Source: Euzebya pacifica
Lineage (GTDB): Bacteria; Actinomycetota; Nitriliruptoria; Euzebyales; Euzebyaceae
Direction of reading: 5' to 3'
Length of the DNA: 64,000 bases
NCBI RefSeq assembly: GCF_003344865.1
Contig: NZ_CP031165.1
Coordinates: forward strand, 744,001-808,000
The translations under genes and the position numbers were made by a program. Each line of letters starts with the position of its first letter. Positions within the stretch are counted from its first letter, which is position 1. Positions 48,470 through 55,582 of this stretch are shown one piece after another. The notes beneath the pieces were generated by a model, which saw only the letters and a list, made by a program, of their open reading frames with translations, had not been told where the DNA came from and made no database searches.

Positions 48470-50332
48470 GTGATCCCCAGGTTCAACCGCCGTGATCTGT
48501 TGAGGACGTCGACCGCCGGAGCTGGTGCGCTGGCAGGGACCACCCTGCTGGCCCGCGCCGGGGTCCTGACCGGGGTCCTCGGCCTGTCCAGCGCCGCCGC
48601 GTCGGGCGTCGCCGGGGCCATCGAGGGCGCGGCGTTGCCGCTGCCGTTCACCAGCCCACTGCGCCAGCCGCCGGTCATCACCGACGCCGATATCTCCCTC
48701 GTCGCGCGCGAGGCCGACGTGCAGCTCCTGCCGGGCCAGCCCACGAAGATGTGGACGTTCGACGGCACCTGGCCGGGTCCGACGATCCGGCGTCCATCGG
48801 GGCAGCAGACCACCGTCAGGGTCACCAACGACCTGCCGGCCGAGGTCGGCGACATCACCGTGCACCACCACGGCGGCCACCAGGCGGCCGAGCACGACGG
48901 CGGGCCGGTGCAGGATCCGGTGCTGCCCGGCGCGACGCGCACCTACGTCTACGAGCTGATGGAGGACGGCGAGGGCGAGCGGGCGGCCACGCAGTGGTAC
49001 CACGACCACTCCCATTTCCGGACCGGCCGCAACAACTGGTTCGGCCTGCAGGGCATGTTCATCATCGACGACGACGTCGAGGCCGCCCTCGGCCTCCCCG
49101 ACGGTGACCAGGACCTGGTCCTGATGTGCACCAACCGCGATGTCGACGAGCAGAACCAGCTGCTGGACCGCTTCACCGCCCCCGATCGCGAGGAGGCGAC
49201 GGCGCTGGACGCCGCCCCGGTGGGGGGCACGGGCCGCTACCCGCTGTCGGGTGACGAGACCGCGTCGCTCGGACCGATGTTCCTCGTCAACGGGGTGCTG
49301 CAGCCCTTCGCCGACGTGCAGGCTCGTCGGTACCGCCTGCGCCTGATGAACGCCGCGAACTGGCAGGTCTACAACTTCTCCCTCAGCGGCCCGAACGGGA
49401 CCGTGCCGATGGTGCAGATCGCCGCCGAGGCCGGCCTGCTGCCGGTGGCCCTCGAGCGCGACGACATCCTGCTCGGCCCGGCCGAACGTGCCGAGGTCAT
49501 CGTCGACTTCACGGGCATGGAGGGCCAGCGGTTGGTCCTGGCATCGGGACCCGGGTCGGCGTCCGCCCAGGGGGTAGTGCCGTTCTACAACGCCCCCACG
49601 CCAGCGGAGTTCGTGGAGTTCAGGGTCGGTCCGGTCGACCCCGATCACCCGGACACCTCATCGGTGATCGACCACGGCCAGGCGCTGCGCGAGCTGCCGC
49701 ACTGGGCCGCGGGGCTCGCGGCGCAGCCGGACCGGGTGTGGGTGTTCGGCGTCGGTGTCGACGAGGCCGGACGCGCCGCGTGGACCATCAACGGCCGTGC
49801 GTTCGACCACGACCGCGTGGACGCCCGTCCCGAGCTAGGGGCCAGCGAGACGTGGCTGCTGGCCAACACGACCCAGCAGACCCACTTCATCCACATCCAT
49901 GACGTGGACTGGGTGGTGTTGCAGCGCAACGGCGATCCGGCGCCGGTGCACGAACAGGGGTTGAAGGAGACGTTCCGGATCGACCCCGGCGAGGTCGTCC
50001 TCGTCGGGTCGACGTTCACCGACCACCTCGGCCCCTACATGATGCACTGCCACATGCTGGAGCACGAGGACCACGGGATGATGAACACGTGGGAGGTCGT
50101 GGAACCCGGTCAGGGCGACCGGCCCGCCGGCCTGGGCTCAGTGGCAGAGGCCCTGGCCGCCGACATGGCCACGGCCGAGTCGCTGTCGGTCGCACAAGCC
50201 GTGATCGGGGCAGCCCGCAACGGCCGTCCGGCCCCGATGTCGCTGCTGAACCGCCTGAACGCCGGCCGCGGGGTCGTGACCGACATCCCCTCCCAGGCAG
50301 CCCTCTACTGCGACCTCAACGACCTGCGGTAG
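48470..50332 (+). CDS. Tat-exported multicopper oxidase (CotA / bilirubin-oxidase-like)
   Basis: A 620-aa oxidase. A Tat-like leader (RFNRRDLLRTSTAGAGALAGTTLLARAG) precedes the cupredoxin domains. All four copper motifs are present: ITVHHHGGHQ, TQWYHDHSHF, THFIHIHD and MHCHMLEHEDHGMM, the last with the type 1 Cys, His and Met. The enzyme oxidises phenols, bilirubin-like compounds or metals while reducing O2 to water. GTG start with GAGG about 8 nt upstream. Its 3' end overlaps the convergent acyl-CoA-dehydrogenase-like gene by 17 bp. Confidence 0.94.
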   Translation: MIPRFNRRDLLRTSTAGAGALAGTTLLARAGVLTGVLGLSSAAASGVAGAIEGAALPLPFTSPLRQPPVITDADISLVAREADVQLLPGQPTKMWTFDGTWPGPTIRRPSGQQTTVRVTNDLPAEVGDITVHHHGGHQAAEHDGGPVQDPVLPGATRTYVYELMEDGEGERAATQWYHDHSHFRTGRNNWFGLQGMFIIDDDVEAALGLPDGDQDLVLMCTNRDVDEQNQLLDRFTAPDREEATALDAAPVGGTGRYPLSGDETASLGPMFLVNGVLQPFADVQARRYRLRLMNAANWQVYNFSLSGPNGTVPMVQIAAEAGLLPVALERDDILLGPAERAEVIVDFTGMEGQRLVLASGPGSASAQGVVPFYNAPTPAEFVEFRVGPVDPDHPDTSSVIDHGQALRELPHWAAGLAAQPDRVWVFGVGVDEAGRAAWTINGRAFDHDRVDARPELGASETWLLANTTQQTHFIHIHDVDWVVLQRNGDPAPVHEQGLKETFRIDPGEVVLVGSTFTDHLGPYMMHCHMLEHEDHGMMNTWEVVEPGQGDRPAGLGSVAEALAADMATAESLSVAQAVIGAARNGRPAPMSLLNRLNAGRGVVTDIPSQAALYCDLNDLR

Positions 50333-51266
50333 CCACGACCGCCCGGCCCACCGCCTCGAGGTCCCCCTCGGCGTGGTCCTGGCGCAGGTACAGGTGCAGG
50401 TCCGCGGCACGCTGGGCGAAGGCGGCGTCGCCGACGTACGGGCGCGGCCCGAACGCCCGACCGATCCGATCCAGCACCTCCGCGGCCTGCCGTTCCACGG
50501 TGTGGCGGGCGGCGAGCGCCTCCAGCTGACCCGGTCCTTCGCGGTGCTGGGCCGCGCGGTGCAGGACGGCAACCATCGCCTCACCGGCTGCGTGGAGGGC
50601 GCCGATGTGGGCGAGGCGATGCGGCCCGGCGTCCTCGCCCATCGCCACCGCCTCGTCGACGAGGCCCAGGGCCGCCCCGGCCCAGCAGGCAGCCGGCCGC
50701 AGCGCACCCGCCCAGAAGCCGGGTCGTGCCAGGTACCAGCCGGGCTTCCCGACGACGGTGTCCACGGGGTGGTCGAGGAACCGGCACGTCCCGGTCGCGG
50801 TGTCGGCCAGCGCGTCGGTGGCCCAGGGGCCGTGGACGTGCTCGACCCCGTCGAGCTTGTCGCCGGCAGCGACGTCGAGTAGTAGCTCTGGTCCTCCACC
50901 TGGGTCGGTGCCGCTCACGAGCGCCCGGTCGACGACCCCGAGACCCGAGCAGAACGGCTTGGGCCCGCTGATGTGGCCGTCGTGTCGCTCCACGCCACCA
51001 CGCGAGGCCCACACGCCGTACAGCGCATCGGCCTGTGGGGTCAGTCCTGCCTCGTCGAGGATCAGCACCGCGTCGAGGTGGGCCTCCACGAGTCGGGCGA
51101 TGGACACCGAGCCGGTGCGGGCGAGGTTGATGAGGTAGTCGATCCGCGCCACGGGGTCGCCGTGCAGGGCCGTGGCGAACGCCGGCTCCTCCACGGCGGC
51201 CCGGACGGTGCTGGCGATCGTGGTCCGGCGGTCGGTGGGCCCCTGGTCGGTGTGCATCGTGGTCAT
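50316..51266 (-). CDS. Acyl-CoA dehydrogenase-like protein of a four-gene glycoconjugate cluster
   Basis: A 316-aa protein, shorter than normal acyl-CoA dehydrogenases (about 380). ACAD features remain: VEAHLDAVLILDEAG, a central strand domain (ISGPKPFCSGLGVVDRALV, GPWATDALADTATGTCRF), and a helical C-terminal part (AALGLVDEAVAM, AHIGALHAAGEAMVAVL). The usual catalytic Glu cannot be placed. The ATG overlaps the PIG-L stop by 4 nt, and it is the last gene of GT2-methyltransferase-PIG-L-ACAD. Similar four-gene sets occur in other bacteria, to my knowledge without an assigned product. Confidence 0.82.
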   Translation of the reverse strand: MTTMHTDQGPTDRRTTIASTVRAAVEEPAFATALHGDPVARIDYLINLARTGSVSIARLVEAHLDAVLILDEAGLTPQADALYGVWASRGGVERHDGHISGPKPFCSGLGVVDRALVSGTDPGGGPELLLDVAAGDKLDGVEHVHGPWATDALADTATGTCRFLDHPVDTVVGKPGWYLARPGFWAGALRPAACWAGAALGLVDEAVAMGEDAGPHRLAHIGALHAAGEAMVAVLHRAAQHREGPGQLEALAARHTVERQAAEVLDRIGRAFGPRPYVGDAAFAQRAADLHLYLRQDHAEGDLEAVGRAVVATAGR

Positions 51267-51937
51267 GTCGTCACGTAGCACTCTCGGGAGGTCAGCGCGG
51301 GCCCCAGGAGGTGGCGGTCCAGGATCGGGGCCACCCCCGGCGGCCCGGTCAGCTGCGAGGCGTGAGCATCGATGGCCAGGGCCTTGCGTCGGCGGGTGTC
51401 GTCGTCGAGCTCCAGCGCCACCAGGCCGGACGGGGCAAGCCGCTCCACCGGGGTGTGGTGATAGGCCCAGAACAGCCAGCAGCGCAGGGCGAGGTCAGGA
51501 CGCCGGTCGACGGCCCGGACGGCGGCCCGCCCACAGGCCTCGTGGTCGCTGTGGTGGTCGTGCAGCCACGGCGCGACGACGGTTGCGCCGTCGGGTGCCA
51601 GGGCGAGGATGGCCGCGGTGACCTCCTCCTCGTGGGCGGGCACCGTGCCGTCGGTGATGCCCAGCCGATGGACGCGGTCCGGATCGACACCGAGCTCGAT
51701 GAGGGCCGCGCGCTGCTCGTCGCGTCGTCGGCCGGCCAGCACGTCGGGTTCGACGTGCCCGGGATAGGCGTTGCCCCCGTCGGTGACGGCCAGCACGGTC
51801 ACCCGGGCGGGAGCGCGGCACAGCAGCCCGCCGGCACCGAGGACCTCGTCGTCGGGGTGCGGGGCGATGACGACGATCGGTCCCTCCGGTGGGTCCCACG
51901 TGGGGGCGGTGTCGCGGCGGTGCGACCAGCCCGTCAT
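51263..51937 (-). CDS. PIG-L family deacetylase
   Basis: A 224-aa LmbE-like zinc hydrolase. The metal motif is VVIAPHPDDEVLGAGGLLCRA (His, Asp-Asp), and the distal His is in VVAPWLHDHHSDHEACGRAAV. Relatives remove N-acetyl groups from GlcNAc-containing substrates such as GlcNAc-PI, GlcNAc-inositol (mycothiol path) and bacillithiol precursors. The start at 51937 overlaps the methyltransferase stop by 4 nt, and its own stop overlaps the ACAD-like start. The neighbouring GT2 suggests it works on a glycosyl product made by the same operon. Confidence 0.92.
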   Translation of the reverse strand: MTGWSHRRDTAPTWDPPEGPIVVIAPHPDDEVLGAGGLLCRAPARVTVLAVTDGGNAYPGHVEPDVLAGRRRDEQRAALIELGVDPDRVHRLGITDGTVPAHEEEVTAAILALAPDGATVVAPWLHDHHSDHEACGRAAVRAVDRRPDLALRCWLFWAYHHTPVERLAPSGLVALELDDDTRRRKALAIDAHASQLTGPPGVAPILDRHLLGPALTSRECYVTT

Positions 51938-52503
51938 CGCTGGACCTGCCAAACGTCGAGGACGAACTGGGGGTCGACCAGGGAGGTCAGCCGGTCCAGC
52001 CACGGCAGGGCGTCGAGGTGCGCGTGGACCTCCTCGCCGGTGCGCGGGTAGTTCGTCGGGCCGGTCCAGTGGACGGCGACGAGGACGCCGTCATCGGTCA
52101 TCGACCGTGCCATCGCCGCGTCGAGCTGCTGCTGGGTCGCGGCGTCGAGGTAGTAAGCGACCTCGCTCAGGACGACCAGGTCGACGGTGCCGTCGGGCCA
52201 GGCGGACGGGAGCTGGCCCTGCTCGATGCGGGCGTTGGTGCCGTCGAGGCGGTCGGTCGCCCGCTCGACGCAGCTCGCGATGGGGTCGAAGGCGATCACC
52301 TCGTCGCAGACCTCGACCAACCGCTCGGTCAGGGCGCCGTTGGCACAGCCGGGTTCGACCGCCCTGGCAAAGCGTCGTCCGGCCGGCAGGGCGGCGATGG
52401 ACAGGTCCTGCTTGCGTCGTTCGTAGGGACGGCGGTCGAAGCCCCATGGGTCGGGGTCGTCGGCGTACTTGCCGTCGAAGTAGGAGAGGGGATGCACGCT
52501 CAC
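51934..52503 (-). CDS. NodS-like SAM-dependent methyltransferase
   Basis: A 189-aa methyltransferase. The opening SYFDGKYADDPDPWGFDRRPYERRKQDLSIAAL is typical of the NodS-like group. Motif I is AVEPGCANGALTERLVE, motif II VIAFDPIASCVERA, and VDLVVLSEVAYYLD follows. Rhizobial NodS N-methylates the deacetylated amino sugar of Nod factors. Here it sits beside a deacetylase (PIG-L) and a glycosyltransferase, so a comparable N-methylation of a deacetylated sugar is an attractive inference. GTG start overlapping the GT2 stop. Confidence 0.9.
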   Translation of the reverse strand: MSVHPLSYFDGKYADDPDPWGFDRRPYERRKQDLSIAALPAGRRFARAVEPGCANGALTERLVEVCDEVIAFDPIASCVERATDRLDGTNARIEQGQLPSAWPDGTVDLVVLSEVAYYLDAATQQQLDAAMARSMTDDGVLVAVHWTGPTNYPRTGEEVHAHLDALPWLDRLTSLVDPQFVLDVWQVQR

Positions 52504-53303
52504 GACGCGTCCAGCGAGGTCCTCGCGTCGAGCGAGGTCCTGATGTCCAGCGATCCCATCGTGTCGAGGGCGTCAAGGGCGTGGAGGCGGTGGATGGCGG
52601 CACCGAACCCGCGGGCGACCCGGGCGTCGATCCGGCCGGAGGTGTCGACGACCAGCCGGGGGTCGGCAACCACACGGGCCCCGATGTCGCGCAGGCGGCA
52701 CCACAGGGCGACGTCTTCGGCCTGGTCGACGGGCGGGAACCCACCGCAGGTCAGGTAGGGCCAGACACGGACACCGAGGTTGGCCGCGTGGACGTGGGGG
52801 TGGTCGTCGACGGACAGGGTCCGCCGGTAGCCGCGTCGCCAGTCGTCGAGGAACGTGGGCACGTCCACGTCGGTGCGCAGGTCCACCACCCCGGCGACGG
52901 CGTCCAGGCCGAGGCGGGCGCGGTGCACGTAGTCCGGTGCCCACGACTCGGGGACGAGGGTGTCGGCGTCGGTGCTGAGCAGCCAGGCGTTCCCGTCGAG
53001 GCCGAAGGTGTCGACGGCGGCCAACGCGCCCCGATGGCGGACGGCGCCGATGGTGCGGGCGTGCGGTTGGACGACCACGAGGTCCAGGCCGAACCGCCGC
53101 CCGGCGTCGGTCGCGCGTGCAGCGGTGTCGTCACGGGATCGGTCGTCGACCACCACCACGCCGGCGGGCAGGCCGGTGAGGGCCAGGCTGCGCGCCACCG
53201 AGCGCAGGCACGACTCGATCATGGCCGCTTCGTCCCGCGCCGGGATCACCACGGCGAGCGCCGAGGGTGGTGACGAGGTCTGTGCGTCGGGGCCGATCGG
53301 CAT
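52500..53303 (-). CDS. Family 2 glycosyltransferase
   Basis: A 267-aa GT-A enzyme. ALAVVIPARDEAAMIESCLRSVARSL is the N-terminal strand and nucleotide loop; VVVVDDRSRDDTAA and WLLSTDADTLVPESWAPDYV (DxD) bind metal and sugar nucleotide; PPVDQAEDVALWCRLRDIGARV carries the catalytic ED-like motif. There are no membrane segments. It leads the four-gene operon; the next three genes each start within the stop of the previous one. The C-terminus ends in repeated SLD units (LDIRTSLDARTSLDAS). The acceptor is unknown. Confidence 0.92.
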   Translation of the reverse strand: MPIGPDAQTSSPPSALAVVIPARDEAAMIESCLRSVARSLALTGLPAGVVVVDDRSRDDTAARATDAGRRFGLDLVVVQPHARTIGAVRHRGALAAVDTFGLDGNAWLLSTDADTLVPESWAPDYVHRARLGLDAVAGVVDLRTDVDVPTFLDDWRRGYRRTLSVDDHPHVHAANLGVRVWPYLTCGGFPPVDQAEDVALWCRLRDIGARVVADPRLVVDTSGRIDARVARGFGAAIHRLHALDALDTMGSLDIRTSLDARTSLDAS

Positions 53304-53307
53304 CTCG

Positions 53308-53401
53308 CTCGCTTCGCTGGGGCATCCGGACACCGCCCCGGGTGACGGCGGTCGCCCACCCATACCCCCGCCCGGCCCACCCGACACGCGAGCGAAGCGA
53401 G
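53308..53401. repeat. Inverted repeats in the spacer before the GT2 operon
   Basis: CTCGCTTCGCT (53308-53318) and its complement AGCGAAGCGAG (53391-53401) flank 72 bp, with a third partial copy (GAGCGGAGCGAAAG) near 53437. The 189-bp spacer 53304-53492 has no gene I can support. Confidence 0.5.
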
Positions 53402-53492
53402 TGGTCTTGGTTTTGCCTGCGTGGCCCGAACGCCCCGAGCGGAGCGAAAGACACGTCGGGCTTGGCCTGCGTGTCGCATGCGCGTGTGCTGT

Positions 53493-55091
53493 TCATGGGG
53501 TGAAGAGGGCGTCTACGGTCGAGAGCCACTCGATGGCTTCCTGCGGTGTCAGAGCGGTCGGGGAGTCGGGGTTTCCGGGCTGTTGTTGGATGACCACGTT
53601 CAGCACGTGCCCATCCGGCGCATCCACGAAGGCGTGGAAGTAGGTGGTGGTTGGTAGTACGACCGCGATGCGACGTCCGCGGACCTCCACCAGCTGGCCG
53701 CAGTCCTCGACGAACGTCGTCGTCAGGGGTGGGCAACCGTCTGGAATCGAGTTGGCGACGGCCTCTTCGAAGGCGCCTCGGAAGAGGGTTGCGCTGACGT
53801 GGGCGCCCCTGTCGTCGGCCCCGGCGAACACGACCCAGAGGTCCGGATGCTGCGTCTGGGGTTGTTCGATGAGGCGTGCCTGTGGTCCCTCCGCAGTGGA
53901 AGTCCGAAAGTCATCAGTCAGGCGTTCGGCGAGCTGCGCATCAAAGTCGGGGCCGTCGGAACTGGGCGGCGGCCCGTCGGTGTCGACTGAGTCGAGGATC
54001 GCCTGGACGAGTGTGGGGTCGCGTTCGAACCGGATTCGGATGACCAGATCGATGGCCTCGAATCGGTAGGTGGTCGCCCCATCGGCGTCGGTGGTCACGG
54101 TTGCGGTCTGGCGGGCGAACGTCTCCTGGACGCCACCCTCTTGCTCGGGCCAGTGCGATGCGGGGATGGCCAGGAGCCCGGCGTCGGGCTCGTCCAGGTC
54201 GCAGGCCATGTCCGTCCCCATCGGGGCCATGCGGAGCGCCTCGCGCGGCGGAGTTCCACACGATGGGTCGCCGACGCTCCAGGTGGCGGGATAACCGAAT
54301 TGGTTGCCGGTGAACCCGATGTAGTAGGTCCCGAAGTTGCCCGCTTCCAGATCCTGCAGGTCGCCGGGCAAGGGGACGACGTTGGTGCGCGCGTGCACCG
54401 TCACGCTCTCCTGACCGATGGGGATCGTCCAGCTGACCTGGTGCCATCCTGGGGTGAGGGGGGCCTCCACACCGGTGCCGTCGTCGGCGGCGACCCCCAT
54501 GCTGAGGGCAGCCCCTGCGGCCACCTCAGTTGTTTCAGCGGGGGATAGCGTCAGGGTGGGCAGCGGGGTCCAGGCCGTGCCGTCCCAGGAGCTGAGCACG
54601 AACGTCGGGGGGACGTCCAAGGCGACCTCACCGACATGAAGCGTTCCGGTCAGGTGCGGGCCGACGGTGACCTCGGGCATCATCGCGAGCTGAACGGACG
54701 CCGCCCGATTGTCATCCAGGAGAACCACTGCCTCAGAGGGCCCGGTTGCGGGTGGGGCGTCGGCGTAGGGATCGATCGCCCCATCGGATGGCGAAGGCGT
54801 GGATCCGGGTCGGGGTGTGTTGTCCGGGTTGGGCGCGATTGTCATGGACGGCGCAGGGATCAGGGATGCGGTCGGCGATGCCTGGGGCCGAACGGCCAGC
54901 TGCGTCGTGGTGCTGGGGATGCGGGAGAGGATCGGAATGGTGATCGCCAGCACGATGAAGGAGGCCACGACGATGAAGGCACGCCGGGTCTGACGCCGCC
55001 GGTTTTCTCCGAGCTCGGCGGCGCGCCTGTGGGCGCGGGCCAGGTCCGGCTCGCCTGTGTCCAACGCCGCAGGCCACTGCAGTTCGGTCAT
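53493..55091 (-). CDS. Single-pass membrane protein paired with a sigma factor (putative anti-sigma factor)
   Basis: A 532-aa protein: a cytoplasmic N-terminus of about 38 residues (ARAHRRAAELGENRRRQTRR), one membrane helix (AFIVVASFIVLAITIPIL), a Pro/Ser/Thr-rich stalk (about 65-115), and a large extracytoplasmic region rich in beta structure with a few cysteines (DPSCGTPP, DMACDL, DGCPP...EDCGQ). No zinc anti-sigma (HxxxCxxC) motif is seen. The start overlaps the sigma gene stop by 4 nt, the usual sigma/anti-sigma arrangement, which is the only basis for that role. The extracellular part has no family I recognise. Confidence 0.8.
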   Translation of the reverse strand: MTELQWPAALDTGEPDLARAHRRAAELGENRRRQTRRAFIVVASFIVLAITIPILSRIPSTTTQLAVRPQASPTASLIPAPSMTIAPNPDNTPRPGSTPSPSDGAIDPYADAPPATGPSEAVVLLDDNRAASVQLAMMPEVTVGPHLTGTLHVGEVALDVPPTFVLSSWDGTAWTPLPTLTLSPAETTEVAAGAALSMGVAADDGTGVEAPLTPGWHQVSWTIPIGQESVTVHARTNVVPLPGDLQDLEAGNFGTYYIGFTGNQFGYPATWSVGDPSCGTPPREALRMAPMGTDMACDLDEPDAGLLAIPASHWPEQEGGVQETFARQTATVTTDADGATTYRFEAIDLVIRIRFERDPTLVQAILDSVDTDGPPPSSDGPDFDAQLAERLTDDFRTSTAEGPQARLIEQPQTQHPDLWVVFAGADDRGAHVSATLFRGAFEEAVANSIPDGCPPLTTTFVEDCGQLVEVRGRRIAVVLPTTTYFHAFVDAPDGHVLNVVIQQQPGNPDSPTALTPQEAIEWLSTVDALFTP

Positions 55092-55582
55092 CGTTCGTCT
55101 CCTACGAGGTCCATGACGTCGTGGTCCGCGCGAAGTCGCCTCATGGCCTGGTGACACAGGGCAGTGACCGTCCCGGGCCGGCAACCCATGGCTGAGGCGC
55201 TCTCCTCGACGGACAACCCGCCCAGATGCCGCAGCGTCACCGCAGTTCGCTGACGAGGTGTCAGCCGTGCGAGGCCCTGCCGCAACGTGAGGACGAGCGC
55301 GACCCGCCTGGCATGGTCGTCGACGACGCCGTCGGCCACCACCGGGTGCGCAGGTTCATCGCGACGCGCTCGAAGATCGTCGCGAGCCAGGTTCATGCCG
55401 ATGCGGAACAGATAGCCGCCCGGATGCTCCATCCCGCGGACCCGAGGCCACCGCAGGATCACGCGGGCGATCGCTTCCTGGGCGAGGTCCTGGGCACGCT
55501 GCATGTCACCTGTCATGGCCGTGAGGGTGCGCACCAAGCCCGGCCACTGGGCGTGGCAGAACGCATTCACATCTTCGGCCAT
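55088..55582 (-). CDS. ECF-type RNA polymerase sigma factor (SigE-like family)
   Basis: A 164-aa sigma factor. Region 2: HAQWPGLVRTLTAMTGDMQRAQDLAQEAIARVILRWPRVRGMEHPGGYLFRIGMNLARDDLR. Region 4: LARLTPRQRTAVTLRHLGGLSVEESASAMGCRPGTVTALCHQAMRRLR. This size and sequence match the actinobacterial SigE-like ECF group. GGAGG lies upstream. It is translationally coupled to the 532-aa membrane protein, which probably senses an envelope signal and holds it inactive (inference). Confidence 0.93.
   Translation of the reverse strand: MAEDVNAFCHAQWPGLVRTLTAMTGDMQRAQDLAQEAIARVILRWPRVRGMEHPGGYLFRIGMNLARDDLRARRDEPAHPVVADGVVDDHARRVALVLTLRQGLARLTPRQRTAVTLRHLGGLSVEESASAMGCRPGTVTALCHQAMRRLRADHDVMDLVGDER

Follow-up and report, generated by a model that had tools for sequence, protein, structure and literature searches.

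A conserved, stress-associated four-gene cassette of Euzebya pacifica with a predicted N-methylated, oxidised glucosaminide as its product

In a window of 64,000 nucleotides (nt) from the genome of Euzebya pacifica (contig NZ_CP031165.1, positions 744,001 to 808,000; all coordinates below are those of the window), four co-directional genes spanning 50316–53303 encode, in this order, a family 2 glycosyltransferase (GT2), a NodS-like methyltransferase dependent on S-adenosylmethionine (SAM), a PIG-L (LmbE-like) N-deacetylase and a flavoprotein-like protein with the acyl-CoA dehydrogenase (ACAD) fold. On the basis of sequence comparisons, we regard these genes as probably belonging to a horizontally spread, stress-associated cassette that would make a small cytosolic N-methylated, oxidised glucosaminide. 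In the best-supported mechanism, a cytosolic amino-sugar compound would undergo glycosyl transfer, N-deacetylation, N-methylation and flavin-dependent oxidation. This view is built on direct observation of the gene set and its conservation as a unit, the fusion of PIG-L with the methyltransferase, the replacement of PIG-L by a deacetylase of the carbohydrate esterase family 4 (CE4), the catalytic motifs and the neighbourhood of stress genes.

Conservation of the four genes as a unit

Relatives were collected with the ACAD-like protein alone, and the other three families were sought afterwards and played no part in the selection. The samples were nine genomes among 41 close ones, 49 plasmid records and the best 80 of 472 genome loci; the genome scan used alignment A2, alignment A1 being too diverse, and gene order was scored by 3' ends, because over-long and fused open reading frames otherwise distort it. 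We examined 96 loci with an ACAD-like match, many of which were ended early by contig ends or short flanks. GT2 was present in 79 of them, the methyltransferase and PIG-L in 85 each, and all four genes lay on one strand in 70. At least six gene orders occurred among these 70 full loci: ACAD–PIG-L–methyltransferase–GT2 in 52, GT2–ACAD–PIG-L–methyltransferase in 10, PIG-L–methyltransferase–GT2–ACAD in 5, and the others singly, and the window's order, GT2–methyltransferase–PIG-L–ACAD, recurs in the sister genome G002. Overlaps of 4 nt are frequent at the junctions of other loci, too. The records bearing the cassette belong to Actinomycetota, Pseudomonadota, Acidobacteriota and Myxococcota and, through a plasmid record, to Deinococcota; the bacteria are unrelated ones from soil and water as well as radiation-resistant ones. 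Because the same four families stand together in 70 one-strand loci, their grouping in the window is not due to chance. The first-pass annotation of this DNA, which was made from the letters of the window without database searches, had stated that similar sets occur in other phyla, and at least five phyla are now counted. Adjacency confined to this genome and a separate conserved neighbourhood for each gene, either of which would have spoken against its proposal, were both contradicted by the gene-neighbourhood search, in which the four families co-occur as a unit across phyla. These comparisons support the view that the four genes form one conserved functional unit and that the cassette is genuine, widely distributed and coherent in function.

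Two rearrangements bear on the reactions. PIG-L and the methyltransferase form a single open reading frame in 10 actinobacterial loci. Furthermore, 15 Rubrobacter-type genomes have an operon of CE4 polysaccharide deacetylase, ACAD, methyltransferase, pyridine-nucleotide/FAD reductase and GT2, in which Pfam identified Polysacc_deac_1 (1e-23) and Pyr_redox_2, and no PIG-L was found in these 15 operons; the named record of this type is a plasmid of Rubrobacter indicoceani (169,605 bases). PIG-L and CE4 are unrelated folds, both of which strip N-acetyl groups from amino sugars. Since PIG-L has been swapped for an unrelated enzyme of the NodB family (CE4), the operon appears to require the N-deacetylation reaction, not the PIG-L family. 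The added reductase would fit a redox role of the ACAD-like protein. It appears very improbable that the genes are grouped only by shared stress regulation or by travelling together and do not serve one pathway. Such grouping would suit the location in stress islands, the patchy spread with plasmids included, and seven loci with a lone ACAD-like gene, some of them short or ended by the contig, whereas the tight overlaps in several gene orders, the fusions and the exchange of deacetylase family within the operon are hard to explain by it.

Some loci depart from the common layout. In three Mycobacterium loci (L045, L048 and L079) the ACAD-like gene occurs without the other three members nearby, and in L045 a gene of the endonuclease/exonuclease/phosphatase family (PF03372) closely follows it; these lone genes possibly represent a second use of the protein. 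About 5.5 kb separates the ACAD-like gene from PIG-L in the cassette of Pseudomonas anatoliensis (L072, about 10.8–16.4 kb). On a plasmid of Deinococcus sp. AJ005 (L133, 6699–9062), an annotated acyl-CoA dehydrogenase gene has 2364 nt, enough for about 790 amino acids (aa), which may mean that the ACAD-like protein is joined to a further domain there.

Layout of the cassette in the window

All four genes lie on the minus strand. The GT2 gene (53303–52500; 267 aa, ATG start) comes first and is followed by the genes for the methyltransferase (52503–51934; 189 aa, GTG start), PIG-L (51937–51263; 224 aa, ATG start) and the ACAD-like protein (51266–50316; 316 aa, ATG start). These start codons are choices, as in-frame upstream starts exist; for example, no stop codon interrupts the GT2 frame as far as 53387. 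The three junctions joining the four genes are 4-nt overlaps (GTGA or ATGA), in agreement with the first-pass annotation, which had gone on to say that the genes are translated as a unit; such overlaps are common in operons and make translational coupling a reasonable expectation. In the 189-nt gap on the 5' side of the GT2 gene (53304–53492, minus strand), which presumably holds the promoter, a sigma-70-type consensus was sought and none was found. At the other end, the ACAD-like gene and a convergent multicopper oxidase gene (48470–50332, plus strand) overlap tail-to-tail by 17 nt at 50316–50332.

Upstream of the cassette, the minus strand carries a gene for an extracytoplasmic function (ECF) sigma factor (55088–55582; Pfam Sigma70_r2/r4) and then one for a protein without a Pfam match and with a likely membrane span (53493–55127). 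Control of the cassette by this sigma factor was considered as a general feature and rejected, because G002 keeps the cassette and its flanks without it: both the sigma factor and the adjacent protein are missing there, and the flanks are otherwise syntenic and 91–95% identical.

Glycosyltransferase, methyltransferase and deacetylase

Three of the four window proteins matched Pfam families above the gathering scores: GT2 (PF00535, 1e-12; 48.8 bits against 23.3), NodS (PF05401, 4e-11; 43.5 against 24) and PIG-L (PF02585, 2e-20; 74.3 against 28.2). The enzyme set read at first pass is thus recovered by Pfam and, for the ACAD-like protein, by a profile search and a structure model. All NCBIfam matches of the cassette proteins are far under the equivalog cut-offs, so that no known named enzyme is to be recognised among the four. 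No membrane span was found in any of them.

In the GT2 family, the alignment has an invariant DxD within the TDADT motif and a conserved ED pair. The model of the window protein predicts a soluble, inverting enzyme of the GT-A fold, whose structural neighbours reach a Z score of 22.8 over 187 residues (rmsd 2.4). A structure search for its acceptor was uninformative, as WrtF, PcManGT, chondroitin polymerase, TarS and GpgS score alike.

The window methyltransferase has the SAM motif EPGCANG at residue 50. It scored 54.2 bits against a cut-off of 300 for the NCBIfam NodS equivalog NF041650, and this wide shortfall makes it a relative of NodS, not NodS itself. When the profile of the family was compared with solved structures, 4ISC (1e-69), whose record is titled only 'Methyltransferase', scored far above any other, followed by NodS (3OFJ, 7e-29) and phosphoethanolamine methyltransferases (1e-15); among characterised relatives with solved structures, NodS is therefore the closest. 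NodS methylates the nitrogen of deacetylated glucosamine. The zinc motifs of the window PIG-L are intact (HPDDE at residue 27 and HxDH at residue 129), and the best solved matches of its profile are diacetylchitobiose deacetylase (8BGN and 8BGO) and MshB; against the two BshB equivalogs of NCBIfam it scored 47.6 bits (cut-off 195.25) and 41 bits (cut-off 182.5), far below either. The succession of N-deacetylation and N-methylation, which the first-pass annotation had proposed, gains support from the PIG-L/methyltransferase fusions, the exchange for a NodB-family enzyme and the relationship to NodS.

The ACAD-like protein

The window protein alone gave no Pfam match at E values up to 1, and its membership of the ACAD fold comes from the profile search and the structure model (pLDDT 93.5). 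Its description at first pass as shortened agrees with its length of 316 aa, the same genome encoding two canonical ACADs of 378–384 aa. The whole fold matched acyl-CoA dehydrogenase 4u83 (Z 28.6, 292 residues, rmsd 2.4) and the monooxygenase TdsC (5xdc; Z 28.3, 298 residues, rmsd 2.6). In the profile search, the best solved relatives were TdsC (6e-14) and DszC (9e-11), with DnmZ and nitrososynthase among the matches, and Foldseek placed TdsC, MsuC and DszC in its top rows, with KijD3 among the matches. TdsC, DszC and MsuC are class D flavin monooxygenases and are thus the closest solved relatives by both profile and Foldseek rank, differing in that identity is about 20% and the N-terminal part of the ACAD-like protein is shorter. 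It shares a CSG motif with DszC, in which S163 of DszC is aligned with the conserved S107, and the position of DszC H97 corresponds to H63; we take H92, Y96 and S163 to be active-site residues of DszC. Q296 and H298 are invariant in an alignment of 50 sequences.

One possibility, which we regard as doubtful, is that the protein works as a genuine dehydrogenase or reductase, with an acyl- or amine-linked intermediate as its substrate; the product would then be desaturated or of the imine type, not oxygenated. ACADs and monooxygenases tie at Z about 28 in structural alignment, and a Rubrobacter-type homologue matches the Pfam families Acyl-CoA_dh_N and Acyl-CoA_dh_M. However, alignment with the canonical ACADs of the same genome revealed that the family has a shortened TEPxxGSD loop or another stretch in its place and that an invariant Gln lies at or beside the column of the catalytic Glu in YEGT, the register being uncertain by one residue; some ACADs carry the catalytic Glu elsewhere. 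In addition, the best profile matches, TdsC and DszC, have the CSG motif in common with the protein, and the conserved core of the cassette is without an acyl-CoA ligase, thioesterase or electron-transfer flavoprotein. On sequence and model, the protein is more likely a flavin monooxygenase-like enzyme than an acyl-CoA dehydrogenase. Structure prediction upheld the ACAD fold, and in the alignment the hallmarks of acyl-CoA dehydrogenases appear to be missing; of the 'desaturation or oxidation' step suggested at first pass, desaturation is weakened by these missing hallmarks and by the nearest sequence relatives being monooxygenases, and oxidation is retained as a predicted step.

Stress-gene neighbourhood and spread

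Genes for trehalose metabolism and stress protection accompany the cassette in several genera, a context that the first-pass annotation had not noted. In Comamonas it is enclosed in a single run between otsA and otsB; in Legionella it adjoins otsB and a GH65 gene, and in Acinetobacter and Psychrobacter a trehalose-6-phosphate synthase is near. Catalase is found nearby in Deinococcus, together with Dps, in Sulfitobacter and Novosphingobium, and in Cupriavidus, together with a GlgE-type enzyme; the Pseudomonas neighbourhood includes GlgX, Ku and LigD (names read from the sequences with no family search). Catalase is among the commonest Pfam families of cassette neighbours, and a long catalase is present in 9 of 80 loci, which total 1.46 Mb. 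As a control, about 6 full-length Catalase_C matches were counted in 100 whole genomes of Actinomycetota, the phylum to which the window belongs, which supports an enrichment of catalase near the cassette, the one-phylum control giving no exact factor.

In this phylum, 31 of 296 sampled genomes, roughly a tenth, have the ACAD-like gene. Within the genus, G002 has the cassette at the same site, with an ACAD-like protein 80% identical to that of the window; G001 has it at a different site, with 43% identity; and G003 gave no ACAD-like match. This pattern fits repeated horizontal transfer of the cassette, which is found on plasmids as well. Only two phage-labelled records match (H36 and H37, Acinetobacter phage MD-2021a, 230–300 kb); they have an LmbE-like gene beside a methyltransferase gene and may be mislabelled plasmids.

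Comparison with known systems

The cassette resembles the Nod-factor system in its logic of glycosyl transfer by NodC (GT2), N-deacetylation by NodB (CE4) and methylation of the freed amine by NodS; its methyltransferase falls in the Pfam NodS family, and Rubrobacter-type copies use a NodB-family deacetylase. It differs in that its GT2 is small and soluble, its usual deacetylase is PIG-L, an ACAD-fold flavoprotein is added, and it is located in stress islands of many genera not known for nodulation. Neither NodA nor NodIJ was seen among the annotated loci or the 25 commonest neighbour Pfam families, no NodA or NodIJ model having been searched directly. We consider it unlikely that the target of the cassette is a cell-surface glycan or glycolipid, such as a Nod-factor-like or envelope amino-sugar conjugate, instead of a soluble metabolite. 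NodC-, NodB- and NodS-type enzymes do form the Nod-factor core, the Rubrobacter-type version does have CE4, and some copies adjoin extra glycosyltransferases and UDP-galactopyranose mutase; set against these, the GT2, of about 235 aa, is soluble, unlike NodC, and recurrent genes for a flippase, transporter, polymerase or acyltransferase are lacking. Since membrane spans are absent from the four window proteins and the conserved core has no transporter, a small cytosolic metabolite fits better. Of the modified amino-sugar conjugate predicted at first pass, deacetylation and N-methylation are kept and the glycoconjugate becomes the less likely product.

In mycothiol (MshA/MshB) and bacillithiol (BshA/BshB) synthesis, a cytosolic glycosyltransferase acts and a PIG-L-family enzyme then deacetylates the GlcNAc glycoside, yielding a small protectant. 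The cassette would have the same cytosolic succession of enzyme types; it differs in having a GT2 instead of a GT4 enzyme, no cysteine ligase, and N-methylation and a flavoprotein instead. KijD3 and the nitrososynthases are ACAD-fold flavin monooxygenases that act on amino sugars. They differ in acting on dTDP-sugars in antibiotic clusters, and their similarity to the ACAD-like protein is weak (E about 3e-4), below that of TdsC and DszC.

No description of the cassette was found in open-licence full text, subscription papers being outside the scope, and the term 'undescribed', which the first-pass annotation had applied to it, can be kept provisionally. In papers on desiccation in Curtobacterium (PMC12029717) and Acinetobacter Tol 5 (PMC13130816) and on trehalose in Bradyrhizobium (PMC8092242), no passage naming the cassette was found.

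Proposed pathway and significance

We infer the sugar donor, the acceptor, the order of steps, the oxidation reaction and the physiological role as follows. GT2 would transfer an amino sugar bearing an N-acetyl group, probably GlcNAc with UDP-GlcNAc as donor, onto a common cytosolic acceptor; PIG-L, or the CE4/NodB-family enzyme in Rubrobacter-type genomes, would take off the acetyl group; and the NodS-like enzyme would use SAM to methylate the freed amine. The ACAD-fold flavoprotein would then oxidise the product; oxygenation at N or C by a reduced-flavin monooxygenase is likelier here than the reaction of an acyl-CoA dehydrogenase. The final product may shield cells under stress, as the products of neighbouring genes do.

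Several points weigh against this pathway. The GT2 model resembles many GT2 enzymes to a similar degree and thus does not pin down donor or acceptor, and the whole-fold scores of the ACAD-like model are tied as described. DszC H92 is aligned with R58 and Y96 with Ala or Gly, and these active-site residues are not conserved in the ACAD-like family. Stress genes are absent around the window copy, which is accompanied by genes for the multicopper oxidase, a kinase and a phosphoesterase instead, and stress neighbours elsewhere may reflect shared regulation, not shared chemistry.

A more specific and speculative proposal, which we think unlikely to hold, is that the product is an N-oxygenated N-methyl-glucosaminide (a hydroxylamine or nitrone) serving as a radical-trapping cytosolic protectant under oxidative and drying stress. 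If this were true, such glucosaminides would be a new class of protectants common to Deinococcus, Rubrobacter, Pseudomonas, Acinetobacter and mycobacteria. More generally, the cassette occurs in at least five phyla, has fused and exchanged parts suggestive of a fixed order of reactions, and lacks a described product, all of which indicates a widespread metabolite that would be new. Deinococcus and Rubrobacter are radiation-tolerant genera, and the presence of the cassette in both, together with its company of stress genes, makes a protective role directly testable.

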